This document shows, piece after piece, positions 1-33,413 of a stretch of DNA of 33,848 nucleotides. A model generated the notes under the pieces. The model saw only the letters and a program-made list of their open reading frames with translations. It was not told the origin of the DNA and did no database searches. The stretch covers positions 1-33,848 of the forward strand of contig JAFXCQ010000026.1 in NCBI GenBank assembly GCA_017521425.1, read 5' to 3'. This DNA is from Clostridia bacterium (GTDB lineage: Bacteria > Bacillota > Clostridia > Oscillospirales > Acutalibacteraceae). The position numbers were made by a program, and so were the translations under genes. Every line of letters starts with the position of its first letter. Positions within the stretch are counted from its first letter, which is position 1.

Positions 1-37
1 TCCTATTTCCTATTTCCTATTTCCTAATTGCTAATCC
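1..37 (-). repeat. Heptanucleotide repeat at the 3' end of the isomerase-like gene
   Basis: On the minus strand three GGAAATA units follow one GCAATTA unit and a partial GGATTA, all in a seven-base register. The array overlaps the last codons and the TAG stop of the gene ending at 17. It reaches the window edge, so its full length is unknown. The same G/A-rich heptad style recurs at 14720-14778 and 15518-15544. Confidence 0.8.
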
Positions 38-13769: not shown

Positions 13770-14714
13770 ATGTTAAAAGTCGGTGTTGTAGGTGTTGGTG
13801 GCATAAGCGGTGCCCACATTCCTGCGTGGGAAGAAATTAAAGAAGTAGAATTGGTTGCTCTTTGTGATATTCGTCAGGAGCGACTTGACCAATACCCTAA
13901 AAAACGTCATTATAATGATTTTAAAGAAATGCTTGAAAAGGAAGACCTTGATATTCTTGATATCTGTCTCCCTACCTATCTCCACGCAGATTATGCTATA
14001 ATGGCAATGGAGAAAGGTATAAATGTAATTTGTGAAAAACCTATTTCATTAAAGGAAGAAGATGTCGAAAGAGTTTACTCAACTGCTAAAAAGAACAATG
14101 TTAAATTTATGATTGCTCAGGTTTTAAGATTCTGGCCTGAATACGAATTATTAAAAGAGATTTTTGATACAGAAAAATATGGTAAGCTTCTTTCAGGTAC
14201 AATGACTCGTCTTGGTTGCTACCCAAAATGGAGTTGGGACGGTTGGATGATGGATGAAAAAAGAAGTGGTCTTACACCATTCGATTTACACATTCACGAC
14301 CTTGACTTTATGGTTTATGCTTTTGGTGCTCCTAAAAAAGTTGCACACCAATACCGTTCAAAAAGACCAGACCAGGATTTTATTAGTGTTACTTATGATT
14401 TCGGTGACTTTTCAATCAACTCAGAAGCATCATGGTATGCAACAAGCTACCCTTTCACTGCAGAATTCCGCTTCCAGTTTGAAGATGCTTTAGTTTCAAA
14501 CGAAAATGGTAAAATGCAGATTTTCTTAAGAGATGGTAAAATTGACCTTTCAGCAGAAGCTGAGGGCGATACAGGTGATATTAACTTACCAAAGAGTGAC
14601 GCGTATGCAAATGAAATTAAATACTTCCTTGACTGCGTTATGAATGACAAGGATGTTGAGAAAGTTAAGAGTGACGAACTTCTTAGTGTGCTTAAGATTT
14701 TGAATAGCCTTTGA
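13770..14714 (+). CDS. Gfo/Idh/MocA family NAD(P)-dependent oxidoreductase
   Basis: A 314-residue dehydrogenase. The N-terminal Rossmann fold begins VGVVGVGGISGAHIPAW, and the family's conserved Glu-Lys-Pro appears in NVICEKPIS near residue 93, where the Lys positions the substrate hydroxyl. The C-terminal Gfo/Idh/MocA domain carries the LTPFDLHIHDLDFMVYAFG segment with catalytic-site His and Asp. Members oxidise sugars, inositols or amino sugars; the substrate is unknown. The ATG at 13770 follows GGAG by eight bases, rejecting the upstream ATG at 13734. It is followed at once by a heptad repeat and a terminator. Confidence 0.88.
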   Translation: MLKVGVVGVGGISGAHIPAWEEIKEVELVALCDIRQERLDQYPKKRHYNDFKEMLEKEDLDILDICLPTYLHADYAIMAMEKGINVICEKPISLKEEDVERVYSTAKKNNVKFMIAQVLRFWPEYELLKEIFDTEKYGKLLSGTMTRLGCYPKWSWDGWMMDEKRSGLTPFDLHIHDLDFMVYAFGAPKKVAHQYRSKRPDQDFISVTYDFGDFSINSEASWYATSYPFTAEFRFQFEDALVSNENGKMQIFLRDGKIDLSAEAEGDTGDINLPKSDAYANEIKYFLDCVMNDKDVEKVKSDELLSVLKILNSL

Positions 14715-14719
14715 GTTTA

Positions 14720-14778
14720 GGGACTAGGAATCAAAGGGACCAGGGACCAGAAACTAGGAATCAGAAAACAGGAAACAG
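14720..14778 (+). repeat. Heptanucleotide repeat after the oxidoreductase stop
   Basis: Eight seven-base units in register apart from one extra AA at 14734-14735: GGGACTA, GGAATCA, GGGACCA twice, GAAACTA, GGAATCA, GAAAACA and GGAAACA. The array starts five bases after the stop codon. Its last two units form the 5' arm of the terminator that follows. Confidence 0.8.
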
Positions 14779-14806
14779 CGGCAATTACCTCTGTTTCCTG
14801 TTTTGG
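14765..14806 (+). terminator. Terminator built on the heptad repeat
   Basis: A perfect 14-base-pair stem (14765-14778 with 14791-14804), 12-base loop, ending in TTTT. The 5' arm is made of the last heptad units. The A-rich 5' side lets it work on both strands. Confidence 0.8.
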
Positions 14807-14897
14807 ATTTATTTAAACTTTACTTCTTACTTATTCACTATTACTTCAATCACAGAAACATCTTCTGATTGTCCGTTGATTATCTTTCTGTCTTACC

Positions 14898-15503
14898 TTA
14901 AATGTCTAACGCCCTTTTCAATTGACCTTTTACTATAAAAAGATACATTAAATTTAACATTAGTATTGCAATCATAGAAAACATAAGAAACGCTGTATCA
15001 AATGTAACAATTCGTTCTACACTTTTTGCGATAAAAATGCCACAAATTGTTGCAATTGAGCACGAAATAACCGAACTTTTTTTATTTTTCTTTATTGAAC
15101 AAATCATTATATGTCTTACAAGTAAAAACAAGATTATTTTTATAACTTGTAAAAAAAGCAGCACAATAAAGAAGTTAAATAAAGAATCAGTAAAAACAGA
15201 TGAGAAATATACCTCAAAAGCAAGAGCATAGCAAATTGATATTATTCCTATATTCCTATCTAGATTCTTTTTTAATAAATCTTTGAATAGAACCGCTAAA
15301 ACAAAAATAACAACAGAAACTACAATTAAAAACAACAAAATTGCACTTTCAATCAAATTGTTAAATTCTGCAAAGCCGGAAATAAACACCATTGAAATAA
15401 AACAAGCAAAACCAATAATAAAATAAGTAAAATAATAAGGTGTTTCTTGAGTTTTAGACAAATATTCTTGTAATTGCTCTTTGTTATATTTAACTTTATT
15501 CAT
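14898..15503 (-). CDS. Small multi-pass membrane protein of unknown function
   Basis: A 201-residue protein with about six hydrophobic segments: near residues 24-44, 50-70, 85-102, 108-130, 145-160 and 170-192. The short N-terminus is charged and predicted cytoplasmic, and the last ~10 residues are basic. No catalytic motif or known family is recognised. The ATG at 15503 has AGGTG eight bases upstream. It is 17 bases downstream of the araD stop on the same strand, so it may be co-transcribed with araAD, but nothing links it to arabinose use. Confidence 0.75.
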   Translation of the reverse strand: MNKVKYNKEQLQEYLSKTQETPYYFTYFIIGFACFISMVFISGFAEFNNLIESAILLFLIVVSVVIFVLAVLFKDLLKKNLDRNIGIISICYALAFEVYFSSVFTDSLFNFFIVLLFLQVIKIILFLLVRHIMICSIKKNKKSSVISCSIATICGIFIAKSVERIVTFDTAFLMFSMIAILMLNLMYLFIVKGQLKRALDI

Positions 15504-15517
15504 AAACTACACACCTA

Positions 15518-15544
15518 CTGTTATTCCCTGGTCTCTGATTGCCC
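15518..15544 (-). repeat. Heptad repeat forming the end of araD
   Basis: On the minus strand GCAATCA, GAGACCA and GGGAATA run in one seven-base register through the last codons and TAA stop of araD. Units are near-identical to those at 14720-14778 and 1-37. Confidence 0.75.
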
Positions 15545-16231
15545 ATAATACGCATTAGCACCGTGTTTTCTTAAATAGTGCTTATTGAGTAAATTCTGGC
15601 TTATTCTTGCGACGTCAGGGTTTATAAGAAGTGTATTGAAATTCATATTTGCTACTTCTTCTAAAACTACCGCGTTATGCACTGCGTTAAAACAGTCTGT
15701 TCCCCATGAAAAAGGTCCGTGATTTTTTACGAGTACACCGGGAATATCGTCAGGGTTTAATTCTCTGTTAGAAAATGTTTCAACAATTACATTTCCTGTT
15801 TCTGCTTCGTACTCACCTTTTATTTCTGCACCTGTCATTTCTCTTGTACAAGGAATTTCACCATAGAAATAATCTGAATGAGTTGTACCGAGTGGCATAA
15901 TGCCCTTACCTGCCTGCGCAAATGATGTTGCCATTCTTGAGTGTGTATGCACAATACCACCGATATTTTTAAAATTTCTATAAAGCACCAAATGAGTTGG
16001 TGTGTCGCTTGATGGGTTTTTATCACCCTCAACCACCTTACCTGTTTTTAAATCAACAACAACCATATCATCTGCTGTCATAGTGTCATATTCAACACCA
16101 GAGGGTTTTATAACAACAAGATTTTTTTCTCTGTCAACCCCTGAAACATTTCCCCAAGTAAAAGTAACTAAATTATATTTGGGTAAAAGCATATTTGCTT
16201 CATACACTTGTTTTTTTAATTCTTCTAACAT
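15521..16231 (-). CDS. araD: L-ribulose-5-phosphate 4-epimerase
   Basis: Class II aldolase-like zinc enzyme converting L-ribulose 5-phosphate to D-xylulose 5-phosphate, feeding arabinose carbon into the pentose phosphate pathway. Active-site residues fall at the E. coli positions: Asp76 (SSDTPTH), His95 and His97 (GGIVHTHSR), and His171 (VKNHGPF). The family normally ends at YYGQ, residue 231 here. This protein continues with SETRE, encoded by a heptad repeat. The ATG at 16231 follows AAGGTG; an upstream in-frame start at 16261 lies inside araA. It follows araA by ten bases. No ribulokinase gene is adjacent. Confidence 0.95.
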
Positions 16232-23959: not shown

Positions 23960-24013
23960 CATTTATTGAAATAAAGTTAAACATTTTTAGTCGCATTCAT
24001 CTTGGAGGAAAAA

Positions 24014-26641
24014 ATGAAAAACACAAAAAGCAAAAAAGTAATTAAATCTATTGTAACCTGGGTGTTAGTTATTTTGATTTCTATAACTTCAGCAGTAATT
24101 ATTCATAAAACAAACCCTACGGCTGTTCCTACATATAAAAACGGTATGTCCGCATATGAATTAGCTGTTCAATTTGGATATGAAGGAACCATTCAGGAAT
24201 GGCTGGAATCTTTAAATGGTAAATCCGCATACGAAATCGCAAAAGAAAATGGATATACAGGTACTGAAACTGAGTGGATTAAATCAATTGAGGCAACATC
24301 CGAAAAAGAATGTGTAGGAATAAAAACCGTTTCTTTTTCTGTTAATAAAGAATTACTTGTTACACTTACAGATGGAACTGTTATAAACCTTGGTGCAACT
24401 GACGGTCTTAATGGTAAAGATGGCGTTGATGGTAAAGACGGAGTTAACGGCAAAGACGGCATTGATGGCAAAGATGGTCTTGATGGCAAAGATGGTCTTG
24501 ACGGCAAAGATGGTCTTGACGGCAAAGACGGCATTGATGGCAAAGATGGTCTTGATGGCAAAGATGGTCTTGATGGCAAAGATGGTCTTGATGGCAAAGA
24601 TGGTCTTGACGGCAAAGATGGTCTTGACGGCAAAGATGGTATTAACGGTAAAGACGGTGTAAGTATTACTATGGCTAACATCAATTCAAACGGGCAACTT
24701 ATACTCACCTTCTCCGATGGAAAAACCGTTAACCTTGACAAAGTTGTCGGCATGAATGGTACTGATGGTATAAGTATATCTTCTTCAAATATCAATTCTG
24801 ATGGTGAACTTGTTATTACATATTCAAACGGACAAACTGCGAACCTCGGTGTTGTAGTAGGCGCTCAAGGTATTCAAGGCGCTCAGGGATTACAAGGTAT
24901 TCAAGGTGAAAAGGGCGACAAAGGTGCACAAGGTGCTCAGGGTATCCAGGGAGAAAAAGGTGTCAGCGTAACAAAAACCGAAATAAATAATAATGGAGAA
25001 CTTATTATTACACTTTCTGATAACACAGTATCGAATCTCGGTGTTGTGGTTGGTGCTAAAGGCGAACAAGGTGCTCAAGGCATTCAGGGTGAAAAGGGCG
25101 ATAAAGGTGAACAAGGCGCCCAGGGTATCCAGGGTGAAAAGGGCGATAAAGGTGAACAAGGTGCTCAGGGTATTCAAGGTAAACAAGGTGTTGGCATTGA
25201 AACAATAGTTGTAGAAAACAACAATCTTAAAATCTCACTTACCAACGGCACGAACCTTGATCTTGGAAATATCAAAGGCGAGCAAGGAATCCAGGGCATT
25301 CAAGGTGAAAAGGGTGACAAAGGTGAACAAGGAATTCAAGGTATTCAGGGTGAACAAGGTGTCGGCATTTCAGACGTTGACATCACAAATGATGAACTTG
25401 TTATTACCCTTTCAAATAACACTGTTTTGAATCTTGGAAATATTAAAGGTGCCCAAGGTGAACAGGGTTTTCAAGGCATTCAGGGTGAACAAGGTGTTGG
25501 TATTCTTTCTGTAGTAATTGATGATGACGGACACCTTAAAATAACTCTTACAACTGGTACTACTACCGACCTTGGTAATGTTAAAGGTACTAATGGACAA
25601 GATGGCGTTGGTATAGATAAAATCTTTATTCAGGACGGAAACCTTTATGTAAAGAAAACAAACGACACCTCCCCTGTTAATCTCGGTTCAATAAAAGGTG
25701 AAAAGGGCGACAAAGGTGATACTGGTGAGCAAGGTCCTGCTGGTTTAAATGGTACTAATGGTGTTGATGGTAAATCTGCTTATGAGCTTTATAAACAAGC
25801 TCATCCTGAATATACGGGTACACTTGAAGAATGGTTGAATGGTTTAAAAGGTAATGATGGACGTGGAATTGTGAAAACAGAGATAATCAATGGACATCTT
25901 TGGATAACATATTCTGATGACTTGGATACCCCTGTTGATTTGGGTTCAATTTCGATCTCTAATGCTGAAGGCACAGATGGATTAGAATATTATCCGTTAC
26001 CTGATGGTACTTATGGAGTAAAAGTTGGCAATGCTTTATATTTAGAAAATATAGTTATTCCTTCAGTATATAATGGCAAAACAGTAACTACTATTATGGA
26101 AAATGGTTTTGAGGCTATGCGAAATCTCAAAACAATAACAATACCCAATAGTATCACAACCATTGAAAAATATGCATTTAGCGATTGCACTGTATTAGAA
26201 ACTGCCGATATACCTGATACTGTTACCTCAATAGGAGCATATGCATTTAACAATTGTTCGAGTTTAACAAAAATCACTATTCCTACCAAACTTACGGTTA
26301 TTGAGGAATATGCTTTCTACGGGTGTACTGGTGCTGTAAGAAATACAATAACAATACCTAAATCTATAACAAAGATTAAACCTCACGCTTTAGAAATTTC
26401 TAAAGATATTGGAATATTCTTTGAAGAAGCATCTACTTGGGGATACACAAGCGAGCTTGAATATTCCTATCGCGATGGTAGTAGTAGAAAATATAACCGT
26501 GGAACAAGAACTATTAATGTGTCTACAGAAACCAACTACAGTGATTATTTCTATGGAAAAAAGATAAGATTATATATTGACTCTGATGAATATTGGGATG
26601 TTTATCTACAATCGCAAGAATGCACATGGACAAAACAATAA
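24014..26641 (+). CDS. Large surface protein with collagen-like and leucine-rich repeats
   Basis: An 875-residue protein. One hydrophobic segment (about residues 12-31) is a signal anchor or uncleaved signal. Two SAYELA...GYxGT...EWL units (about 45-90) follow, and a third occurs later. A block of 14 GKDG-xx units (about 134-216) then leads into alternating Gly-x-y collagen stretches (GIQGEKGDKGEQGAQ type) and about nine β-modules of ~30 residues with a consensus like NGELIITLSDGTxxNLG. Near 656-795 are BspA-like leucine-rich repeats (NSITTIEKYAFSDC, VTSIGAYAFNNC). The tail after 795 is unrecognised and has no LPxTG sorting motif. Probably membrane-anchored and exposed as a trimeric stalk with an LRR head. 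GGAGG sits before the ATG at 24014. Confidence 0.85.
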   Translation: MKNTKSKKVIKSIVTWVLVILISITSAVIIHKTNPTAVPTYKNGMSAYELAVQFGYEGTIQEWLESLNGKSAYEIAKENGYTGTETEWIKSIEATSEKECVGIKTVSFSVNKELLVTLTDGTVINLGATDGLNGKDGVDGKDGVNGKDGIDGKDGLDGKDGLDGKDGLDGKDGIDGKDGLDGKDGLDGKDGLDGKDGLDGKDGLDGKDGINGKDGVSITMANINSNGQLILTFSDGKTVNLDKVVGMNGTDGISISSSNINSDGELVITYSNGQTANLGVVVGAQGIQGAQGLQGIQGEKGDKGAQGAQGIQGEKGVSVTKTEINNNGELIITLSDNTVSNLGVVVGAKGEQGAQGIQGEKGDKGEQGAQGIQGEKGDKGEQGAQGIQGKQGVGIETIVVENNNLKISLTNGTNLDLGNIKGEQGIQGIQGEKGDKGEQGIQGIQGEQGVGISDVDITNDELVITLSNNTVLNLGNIKGAQGEQGFQGIQGEQGVGILSVVIDDDGHLKITLTTGTTTDLGNVKGTNGQDGVGIDKIFIQDGNLYVKKTNDTSPVNLGSIKGEKGDKGDTGEQGPAGLNGTNGVDGKSAYELYKQAHPEYTGTLEEWLNGLKGNDGRGIVKTEIINGHLWITYSDDLDTPVDLGSISISNAEGTDGLEYYPLPDGTYGVKVGNALYLENIVIPSVYNGKTVTTIMENGFEAMRNLKTITIPNSITTIEKYAFSDCTVLETADIPDTVTSIGAYAFNNCSSLTKITIPTKLTVIEEYAFYGCTGAVRNTITIPKSITKIKPHALEISKDIGIFFEEASTWGYTSELEYSYRDGSSRKYNRGTRTINVSTETNYSDYFYGKKIRLYIDSDEYWDVYLQSQECTWTKQ
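24413..24664 (+). repeat. 18-bp tandem repeat encoding GKDGLD units
   Basis: Fourteen 18-base units (GGCAAAGATGGTCTTGAT and close variants) in phase with the reading frame. Several neighbouring units are identical at the DNA level, so copy-number change by slippage or recombination would keep the frame and alter stalk length. The long antisense reading frame here is only a shadow of the repeat. Confidence 0.9.
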
Positions 26642-31916: not shown

Positions 31917-33329
31917 ATGAATTACGATGTTGTTATTGTCGGTGCAGGCCCTGCAGGTATCTTTACTGCGCTTGAACTTATTAAATTAGGTAGCAAAAAA
32001 AAGATTTTAATTATAGAAAAAGGTCAACCCGTTGAAAAACGCAGTTGTCCTAAATCAAAAACACAACAATGTGTAAATTGCAAACCATATTGCCACATTA
32101 CAACCGGATTTTCAGGTGCAGGTGCTTTCTCTGATGGTAAACTTTCATTAAGTTACGAAGTCGGTGGTGATTTACCTTCACTTATTGGCGAACTTTACGC
32201 ACAGGATTTAATAAATTATACCGATAAAATTTATCTGGAATTTGGTGCAGATAAACATATTGAGGGCATTAACGCAAGCGAAGAAGTTAAAGAAATACGA
32301 AAAAGAGCCATTCAGGCAGGTTTGAAACTTGTTGACTGCCCTATCCGTCATTTAGGTACTGAAAAAGCACAGACTCTTTACTATGAAATTGAAAAGTATC
32401 TTCAGAACAATGGTGTCGAAATGATTTTTGGTTATGAATGTACTGATATTGAAATTACAGACGGTAAATGCCGTGGTGTTTACGTTACCAACGGCAAAGA
32501 ATCAAAAGAAATAAAAGGTGAAAAAATAGTTATTGCTACCGGCAGACGTGGTGCAGACTGGCTCGAAAAACTTTGCTCTGAACACGGAATTGAGCACCAG
32601 GCAGGTACAGTTGACATAGGTGTTCGTGTTGAGGTAAGAAACGAAGTTATGGAAAAGGTAAACAAAGCGCTTTATGAATCAAAACTTATTGGTTACCCGA
32701 AGCCATTTAAAAATAAAGTTCGTACCTTCTGTCAGAATCCTGGTGGCTTTGTAAGTCAGGAAAACTATGACAATGATTTAGCAGTTGTTAATGGTCATTC
32801 TTACAAAGAAAAGAAATCTGATAATACCAACCTTGCTATTCTTTGTTCTCATAACTTTAATTATCCTTTTAACCAACCAATTGAATACGCTCAAAAGGTT
32901 GGTGAGCTTACAAATATGCTCGGTGCAGGTCACATTCTCGTACAAAGATATGGTGATATTCTCGATGGTAAAAGAACATGGCCAAAAGAACTTGCTCAAA
33001 GCAACTTAAGACCAACTCTTCCTGATGCAGTCGCAGGTGATATTACTGCCGCTATGCCTTACAGAGCAATGACAAATATTATCAATTTTATTCAGGCAGT
33101 TGACCATGTTGTTCCCGGCTTTGCTTCAACAGAAACATTGCTTTACTCCCCTGAACTAAAGTTTTACAGTAATAAAATAAAAATGAATACAGACCTTAAC
33201 ACAAGTGTTGAAGGGCTCCACTGCCTTGGTGATTCATCAGGCTGGACCCGTGGTCTTATGATGGCTTCTGTTATGGGTGTACTGATGGGAAGAAAAATAA
33301 ATGCAGAATGCATAACGCAGAATGCTTAA
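31917..33329 (+). CDS. FAD-dependent dehydrogenase-like oxidoreductase
   Basis: A 470-residue flavoprotein of the COG2509 type. The dinucleotide-binding motif GAGPAG is at residues 9-14 after VVIV. A Cys cluster C44, C52, C55, C59 precedes HITTGFSGAGAFSDGKLSLS, the hallmark of this family; whether it binds a metal or cluster is unknown. GEKIVIATGRRGADWLEKL, VDIGVRVEV and the final LGDSSGWTRGLMMASVMGVLMGRKI complete the FAD fold. The reaction is not established. The last residues (about NAECITQNA) and the stop are encoded by a heptad repeat and are probably a later addition. A strong terminator follows. Confidence 0.85.
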   Translation: MNYDVVIVGAGPAGIFTALELIKLGSKKKILIIEKGQPVEKRSCPKSKTQQCVNCKPYCHITTGFSGAGAFSDGKLSLSYEVGGDLPSLIGELYAQDLINYTDKIYLEFGADKHIEGINASEEVKEIRKRAIQAGLKLVDCPIRHLGTEKAQTLYYEIEKYLQNNGVEMIFGYECTDIEITDGKCRGVYVTNGKESKEIKGEKIVIATGRRGADWLEKLCSEHGIEHQAGTVDIGVRVEVRNEVMEKVNKALYESKLIGYPKPFKNKVRTFCQNPGGFVSQENYDNDLAVVNGHSYKEKKSDNTNLAILCSHNFNYPFNQPIEYAQKVGELTNMLGAGHILVQRYGDILDGKRTWPKELAQSNLRPTLPDAVAGDITAAMPYRAMTNIINFIQAVDHVVPGFASTETLLYSPELKFYSNKIKMNTDLNTSVEGLHCLGDSSGWTRGLMMASVMGVLMGRKINAECITQNA

Positions 33330-33330
33330 T
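33303..33330 (+). repeat. Heptad repeat forming the end of the FAD protein gene
   Basis: Four seven-base units in register: GCAGAAT, GCATAAC, GCAGAAT, GCTTAAT. They encode the last residues and TAA stop of the flavoprotein gene. The unit differs in sequence from the GGAAATA/GGGACCA types but has the same length and placement. Confidence 0.7.
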
Positions 33331-33346
33331 TAATTTAATAAATAAG

Positions 33347-33396
33347 AAAACTACATTCTATCAATTTTAGTTAAAATGATAGAATGTAGTTTTTAT
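33347..33396 (+). terminator. Terminator of the flavoprotein gene
   Basis: A perfect 17-base-pair stem (33347-33363 with 33377-33393), 13-base loop, followed by TTTTTATAATAT. AT-rich but long. Confidence 0.85.
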
Positions 33397-33413
33397 AATA
33401 TAATTTTGAATTT

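Follow-up and report, generated by a model that had tools for sequence, protein, structure and literature searches.

Heptanucleotide arms of a probable clade-specific, terminator-like element at araD and other gene ends of a Clostridia bacterium

The window analysed here (the whole stretch of 33,848 nucleotides, contig JAFXCQ010000026.1 of assembly GCA_017521425.1) carries araD on the minus strand at 15521-16231; this locus is predicted to encode an L-ribulose-5-phosphate 4-epimerase of 236 amino acids counted from the ATG, with matches to TIGR00760 (410.7 bits) and PF00596. The protein ends YYGQSETRE* and, because both TIGR00760 and NF009002 matched only residues 1-231 in the profile search, the five-residue extension SETRE lies outside both models. 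It is read from a heptad arm remnant at 15522..15542 on the minus strand, which overlaps the araD stop codon and encodes SETRE* in the units GCAATCA (15542-15536), GAGACCA (15535-15529) and GGGAATA (15528-15522). The initial annotation had attributed the five residues to heptads in a strict seven-base register; the source of the residues was confirmed and the three units are in place, but the first has one mismatch to the pattern GRRAHHA and begins in native araD codons, so the array really amounts to about 2.5 repeat units. Three-unit matches with at most one mismatch numbered 8 in the window compared to 0.03 on average over 60 shuffles that approximately kept the dinucleotide composition, and about 0.001 such matches would be expected by chance at any of the 34 stops; a chance origin of the araD heptads is excluded.

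The same units were confirmed elsewhere in the window, as had been claimed, at 14720-14778 and at 1-26 (1-37 in the initial annotation). The former is a G-class heptad arm (14720..14778, plus strand) just after the stop codon of a Gfo/Idh gene (which ends at 14714), and the gene end facing araD thereby carries an inverted arm of the same heptad class. This array is not isolated: it continues into a strong hairpin at 14765-14804 in which the inner heptads are built up with their inverted copy (AAAACAGGAAACAG...CTGTTTCCTGTTTT) and which has no TATCATT core. The RNA fold of 14716-14812 was -32 kcal/mol (z -5.1 compared to shuffles), and both strands fold. Between the inverted arms sits an orphan ORF of 201 amino acids (14898..15503, minus strand), which had no Pfam or NCBIfam match, was not called by the dicodon gene caller and gave no match by tblastn of the araD loci of the four closest relatives by AraD comparison (G001, G002, G012 and G016); G002 has a different ORF, of 141 amino acids, at this position.

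Besides araD, two gene ends in the window have been rewritten likewise. At the contig end, a G-class heptad arm (1..37, minus strand) gives a gene encoding a xylose-isomerase-like TIM-barrel protein (PF01261; 17..811, minus strand) its last residues and stop (LAIRK*), while the orthologues end MQNA* in AATGCAG heptads (G001 and G012) or LSAKC* in GTGCTGA heptads (G002). The other is the feature at 33300..33325 (plus strand), where the G012 orthologue ends INAEC*; a core hairpin follows at 33347..33393 (ACTACATTCTATCA...TGATAGAATGTAGT), accompanied by a U-rich tract on either strand, and the fold of 33330-33410 was -22.9 kcal/mol (z -6.0). Position 1 of the window and G000:C27:1, a second contig start in the window's own genome (G000), both lie within heptad arrays, suggesting that the assembly breaks at heptad elements, and copy numbers may therefore be underestimates. 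A long ORF at 24002-26641 contains 18-base and 45-base tandem repeats (GGTCTTGATGGCAAAGAT), which would translate as collagen-like Gly-X-Y repeats.

AraD was compared across 60 genomes, G000 included; a match was found in 35, of which five were without a locus and hence outside the end count, leaving 30 ends that were read. The initial annotation had taken AraD to end normally at YYGQ, which proved incorrect: the end in close relatives is YYGQK*, as in G001 (95%), G002 (92%) and G016 (84%), whose araD ends have no GRRAHHA-class heptads and which all lack a SETRE-like tail. In G012 (93%) the protein ends YYGQSGTRD*, within five clean heptad units past the junction. Across the 30 ends, one residue follows YYGQ in 19 and none in 1, and tails of 2-9 residues occur in 8 relatives without the GRRAHHA-class repeat, so a long AraD tail alone proves nothing. 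Such variation in tail length would be expected if the araD tail were due to a local frameshift or stop erosion unrelated to repeats elsewhere, as would an array of only about 2.5 units which falls below the TRF threshold and has no inverted partner immediately adjacent; this explanation is nevertheless very improbable, given that G012 carries five more clean units at this codon, and given the chance expectation quoted above and the inverted arm of the same class at the facing gene end. The SETRE tail probably arises by translation into the margin of an arm that belongs to an intergenic element dispersed in the genome.

The DNA between araD and the convergent Gfo/Idh gene is differently built in each lineage. 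A plain terminator-like hairpin was seen by eye in G001 and G016; G012 has heptads, an AAAATTG array, a core hairpin and inverted arrays; G002 has other, AATGCAG-type heptads 3' of the araD stop, followed by the 141-aa ORF, a core hairpin and inverted heptads; and the window has heptads, the 201-aa ORF (unrelated to that of G002), the core-less hairpin made of heptads and inverted heptads. The sister of the window's genome is G001, supported by 651 of 1209 informative sites compared to 281 and 277 for the alternatives (19 genes; 87.8% nucleotide identity). The araD insertion is missing from this sister and present in the more distant G012; loss in G001 or parallel insertion is therefore needed.

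Heptad arrays were catalogued in a sample of 825,014 bases (35% of the genome) containing 703 genes from a purpose-written dicodon caller. Exact three-unit matches to GRRAHHA numbered 105 in the whole genome, compared to 1 for a reversed-pattern control. TRF returned 159 period-7 rows in the sample, 129 of them intergenic, while intergenic rows of periods 6, 8, 9, 10 and 11 numbered 6, 19, 11, 20 and 23 respectively. The consensus units fall into many classes, of which the commonest, AAAATTG, is not G-rich; a single heptad class was rejected, the same slots being common to several classes. There is no stop codon within AATGCAG or TTGCAAG units. Array lengths cluster at 4.6-4.7 units (32-33 bases) in 32 of the 96 period-7 rows with a TRF score of at least 36, as if arms were copied as units and did not slip freely.

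After merging, 151 arrays were obtained, of which 23 were inside genes and 27 lay over a stop codon; a margin of 25 nt took in a further 27 beside stops and 4 beside starts, so that 54 arrays were on or near stops and 4 near starts (P = 3e-12 if both were equally likely). The purine-rich strand was the coding strand in 26 of the 27 stop overlaps and in 33 of the 36 arrays within 50 nt downstream of a gene, and the non-coding strand in 6 of 7 upstream of starts. When the 127 arrays not wholly inside genes were compared with 300 random intergenic placements, none overlapped a start (random 19.4±4.0, minimum 9), while stop overlap was not significantly above random (26, by last stop base, compared to 19.8±4.0), which does not support stop codons as a preferred target. 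Among intergenic regions of at least 120 bp, arrays were present in 18/36 convergent, 38/133 tandem and 4/68 divergent regions. Stops in all three frames were found on the purine-rich strand of 53% of 94 arrays, compared to 18% for the other strand, 30% for shuffled sequence and 9% for random intergenic sequence. The strong signals are that arrays avoid start codons and obey the strand rule. The claim of the initial annotation that repeats invade 3' ends and rewrite stop codons stands in part: the location is 3' and stops can be replaced, though stops are not hit significantly more often than under random placement.

The annotation had further envisaged one repeat class invading gene ends, whereas several classes were found and the heptads are the arms of an inverted element centred on a hairpin. 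The core pattern (TATCATT, 8-38 bases, AATGATA) occurred 66 times in the genome compared to 3 for controls and, among the 60 genomes, was abundant (51-113) in G000, G001, G002, G012 and G021 only, with 14 occurrences in G016 and at most 5 in the others. Relaxed cores in the sample numbered 36, with arms on both sides in 13, on the left only in 6, on the right only in 4 and on neither side in 13, some of these armless ones being false cores. Among the 13 two-armed cores, 11 had arms that belonged to a single class and were inverted relative to each other (permuted mean 5.7, maximum 10, in 2000 permutations), and no direct-orientation arm matches were found among these 13. A motif and length filter kept 24 of the 36 relaxed cores for a T-tract test, in which at least 6 T were present in the 12 nt past the stem in 24/24 and 23/24 cases on the two strands, compared to 27% of random intergenic 12-mers. 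Covariation and tail comparisons drew on 79 loci from the scan of 84,980 genomes described below and six araD-region loci. In 74 distinct cores of relatives, stem covariation was above that of shuffles, which ignore kinship among core copies, at pairs -5 (66 compared to 35), -2 (71 compared to 54) and -4 (71 compared to 55), while pairs -1 and -3 hardly vary and were not above shuffles. The core and, by fold, the heptad hairpin at araD have a stable stem with a U-tract after it on either strand, arranged as in a bidirectional intrinsic terminator. No Rfam match at the gathering score was found in the window and six element-bearing loci.

Element loci were then compared between species using 80 of the 95 scan loci (L154 and L213-L227 were left out). 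Thirteen comparisons, at 11 loci of the window's genome, set relatives' element loci against the sample; a true core was present at the corresponding site in 8, heptads without a core in 3 (L183, L192 at araD and L205) and nothing in 2, both at C7:70100, where G012 and G002 carry elements. At L178, G001 has AAAATTG arms and a protein ending GLIEN*, and the window's genome has AATTAGG arms and a protein ending GLI*; by eye, the right flank in the latter retains a trace of the other of these two classes. Arrays were present in both species in 19 comparisons at 15 gene ends of the window's genome; the unit consensus differed by at least three bases in 14 (two of these still within the broad GRRAHHA class), by two bases in 1 and by at most one in 4. 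Because the heptad class usually differs at orthologous gene ends, the tails differ, as in LAIRK*, MQNA* and LSAKC*. The overall effect on tails is only modest, since the first unit of many arrays lies at the stop or directly downstream of it: tails differed in 18/36 genes with heptad ends compared to 32/104 without (P = 0.045, at loci chosen around elements), and the mean unaligned tail length was 2.1 compared to 2.3 residues. A case resembling araD was observed in the window's genome at C31:54216-54587 (minus strand), where a protein ends FKDQGPEIRE* from GRRAHHA heptads compared to FKD* in the G001 orthologue.

Neutral slippage, a suggestion cited for heptads in the available text of PMC4692102, would have the heptads expand in unconstrained 3' intergenic DNA, with stop proximity and tails as functionless by-products. 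It accords with a stop overlap no greater than at random and with the orthologous element L143, where the window's genome has three more units; it does not account for arms that are inverted copies of one class, the strand rule, a covarying central hairpin with U-tracts on both strands or the presence of the C7:70100 element in two relatives and not in the window's genome, nor would free slippage favour arrays of 4.6-4.7 units. Slippage alone is therefore considered unlikely.

Palindromes moved by a Y1 tyrosine transposase of the REP/RAYT type, with heptads hitch-hiking, were also considered. The tetranucleotide GTAG is known from REPs, and CTAC...GTAG stands at the stem foot in 6 of the 36 relaxed cores, that of the window included; single RAYT-sized Y1 genes are moreover present in G000 (C32) and G012 (C9; a long heptad array lies about 1.1 kb away). 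Most cores are, however, without GTAG and, where it is at the stem foot, it is paired within the stem. Y1-type genes also occur in G007 and G020, yet these have only 3 and 2 core matches, while G001 and G021, with 59 and 51 cores and a completeness of 82% and 81%, lack any Y1 match, and the Y1 hits in G002 and G016 were below the family cut-off. A Y1/RAYT mobiliser was rejected for lack of co-distribution with cores in the 60 genomes, allowing for the incompleteness of MAGs, and this origin appears improbable. No transposase was found for the heptad element, and no target-site duplication was seen by eye at araD or C7:70100, though the arms are inverted. A second interspersed palindrome, GTAGGGGCAGACCTGTGGTCGCCCGC, which is GTAG-tagged and REP-like, was observed beside heptad elements in G000 (C7:33470-33782 and C7:214848-215306).

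The element as a whole has two-fold symmetry, with inward purine-rich heptad arms, a spacer and a central hairpin flanked by U-rich tracts on both strands. A ribosome from either flanking gene would meet a purine-rich heptad arm, with three-frame stops in about half of arrays, and RNA polymerase would next meet the hairpin and then a U-tract. Since arm stops, hairpin and U-tract would be encountered from either side, the most likely reading of the sequence is a terminator that acts in both directions and brings its own translation stop, almost irrespective of frame. At araD, and wherever else such an element took the place of the sequence separating two stop codons, it would provide another stop and give the protein a few new C-terminal residues. 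The element may spread as a non-autonomous mobile element, and classes may be exchanged by recombination between copies with inner blocks in common. A bolder possibility, which we offer tentatively and with some doubt, is that of a natural self-spreading stop cassette combining an any-frame translation stop, exchangeable arms and a two-way core, in which recombination swaps arm classes and perhaps dozens of proteins per genome gain species-specific tails.

The DNA-uptake-sequence terminators of Neisseria and Haemophilus are inverted pairs of a short dispersed word that terminate at gene ends; unlike these, the words here are tandem heptads, and no uptake function is known for them. The STRRs of heterocystous cyanobacteria are short tandem heptad repeats, like the arrays described here, a likeness by description only, and small mobile repeats of cyanobacteria have reportedly been treated by Elhai et al. 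In the available text of PMC4692102, the GGGAATC and GGGGA(C/T)T heptads of Xanthomonas and Nostoc are intergenic, lie within 50 bp of stops on the coding strand (some overlapping) and are under-represented between divergent genes; two Xanthomonas genomes have 70 and 75 inverted convergent heptad pairs, and heptad tandem repeats are described as over-represented in many bacterial genomes, their role left unexplained. The arrays reported here are similarly near or over stops on the coding strand and rare between divergent genes, and the likeness to a G-rich tandem unit holds for the GRRAHHA class but not for AAAATTG. They differ from that account in that several classes occur, many not G-rich, and replace one another at a given gene end; in that a covarying hairpin with a U-tract on either side lies between inverted arms; and in a high turnover between species compared to the increased stability reported (PMC4692102).

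TAACTGA repeats of Beggiatoaceae, cyanobacteria and Bacteroidetes are, in the available text of PMC4679880, a single fixed unit with stops in three frames, mostly just upstream of starts, in 169 direct sets and one indirect, and lie over the stop of the upstream gene in 13 ORFs. The three-frame stops and occasional overlap of stop codons are shared with the present heptads, while a hairpin core, present here, is not mentioned in that text; TAACTGA is absent from the listed consensus units of the sample's period-7 arrays. QMITE2 of Coxiella burnetii and other bacterial MITEs or RPEs are small palindromes, some at 3' ends, which can extend proteins or supply stops, going by the available parts of PMC5896051 and PMC2229807, the former describing a palindromic element that extends a protein. 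These are bounded by terminal inverted repeats, in many cases with direct repeats as well, whereas here the arms are tandem heptads.

Stop-codon heptads are thus already published, in the sources as available, for Xanthomonas, Nostoc and Beggiatoaceae. The joint occurrence of multiple heptad classes, a two-sided terminator core with covariation and a change of class at orthologous gene ends was not found described in the literature searched, and no account of such elements in Oscillospiraceae was among the open-licence papers listed. The present clade ties heptads to a definite anatomy (inverted arms, a covarying two-way terminator core, a strand rule and no start overlaps) and supplies near relatives with a changed heptad class at the same gene end. 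Whether heptad arms act as translation-stop insulators, and how such repeats move, become testable questions, and the elements offer a route by which metabolic enzymes could gain short C-terminal tails.

An exact search of 84,980 genomes, which covered one strict core form and may omit the window's own genome, returned 95 stretches, 94 of them in four MAGs (SIG595, SIG596, SIG561 and RGIG2997, the last from goat rectum). The 95th comes from AT-rich sequence in a Bacilli MAG, where inspection by eye showed no neighbouring repeats, and is apparently a chance match; a wide host range was rejected for this core form. It is likely that this is a symmetric, terminator-like element, specific to the clade and armed with heptads, situated near many gene ends in a few related bacteria. 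GGRAHYA heptads, which resemble the GGGNATC heptads in the available text of PMC4692102, were found in 17 of the 391 genomes searched in the class, among them that of the window, and were most frequent in one other genus; the heptad word is therefore more widespread than the core. In that genus, at loci L230-L235, a ACGTAGGGACTAGGGAATAGGAACTAG-like unit recurs, with GTAGGGG palindromes nearby in 3 of the 6 loci (by eye); at L234 the repeat gives an ORF the tail QRRD*.
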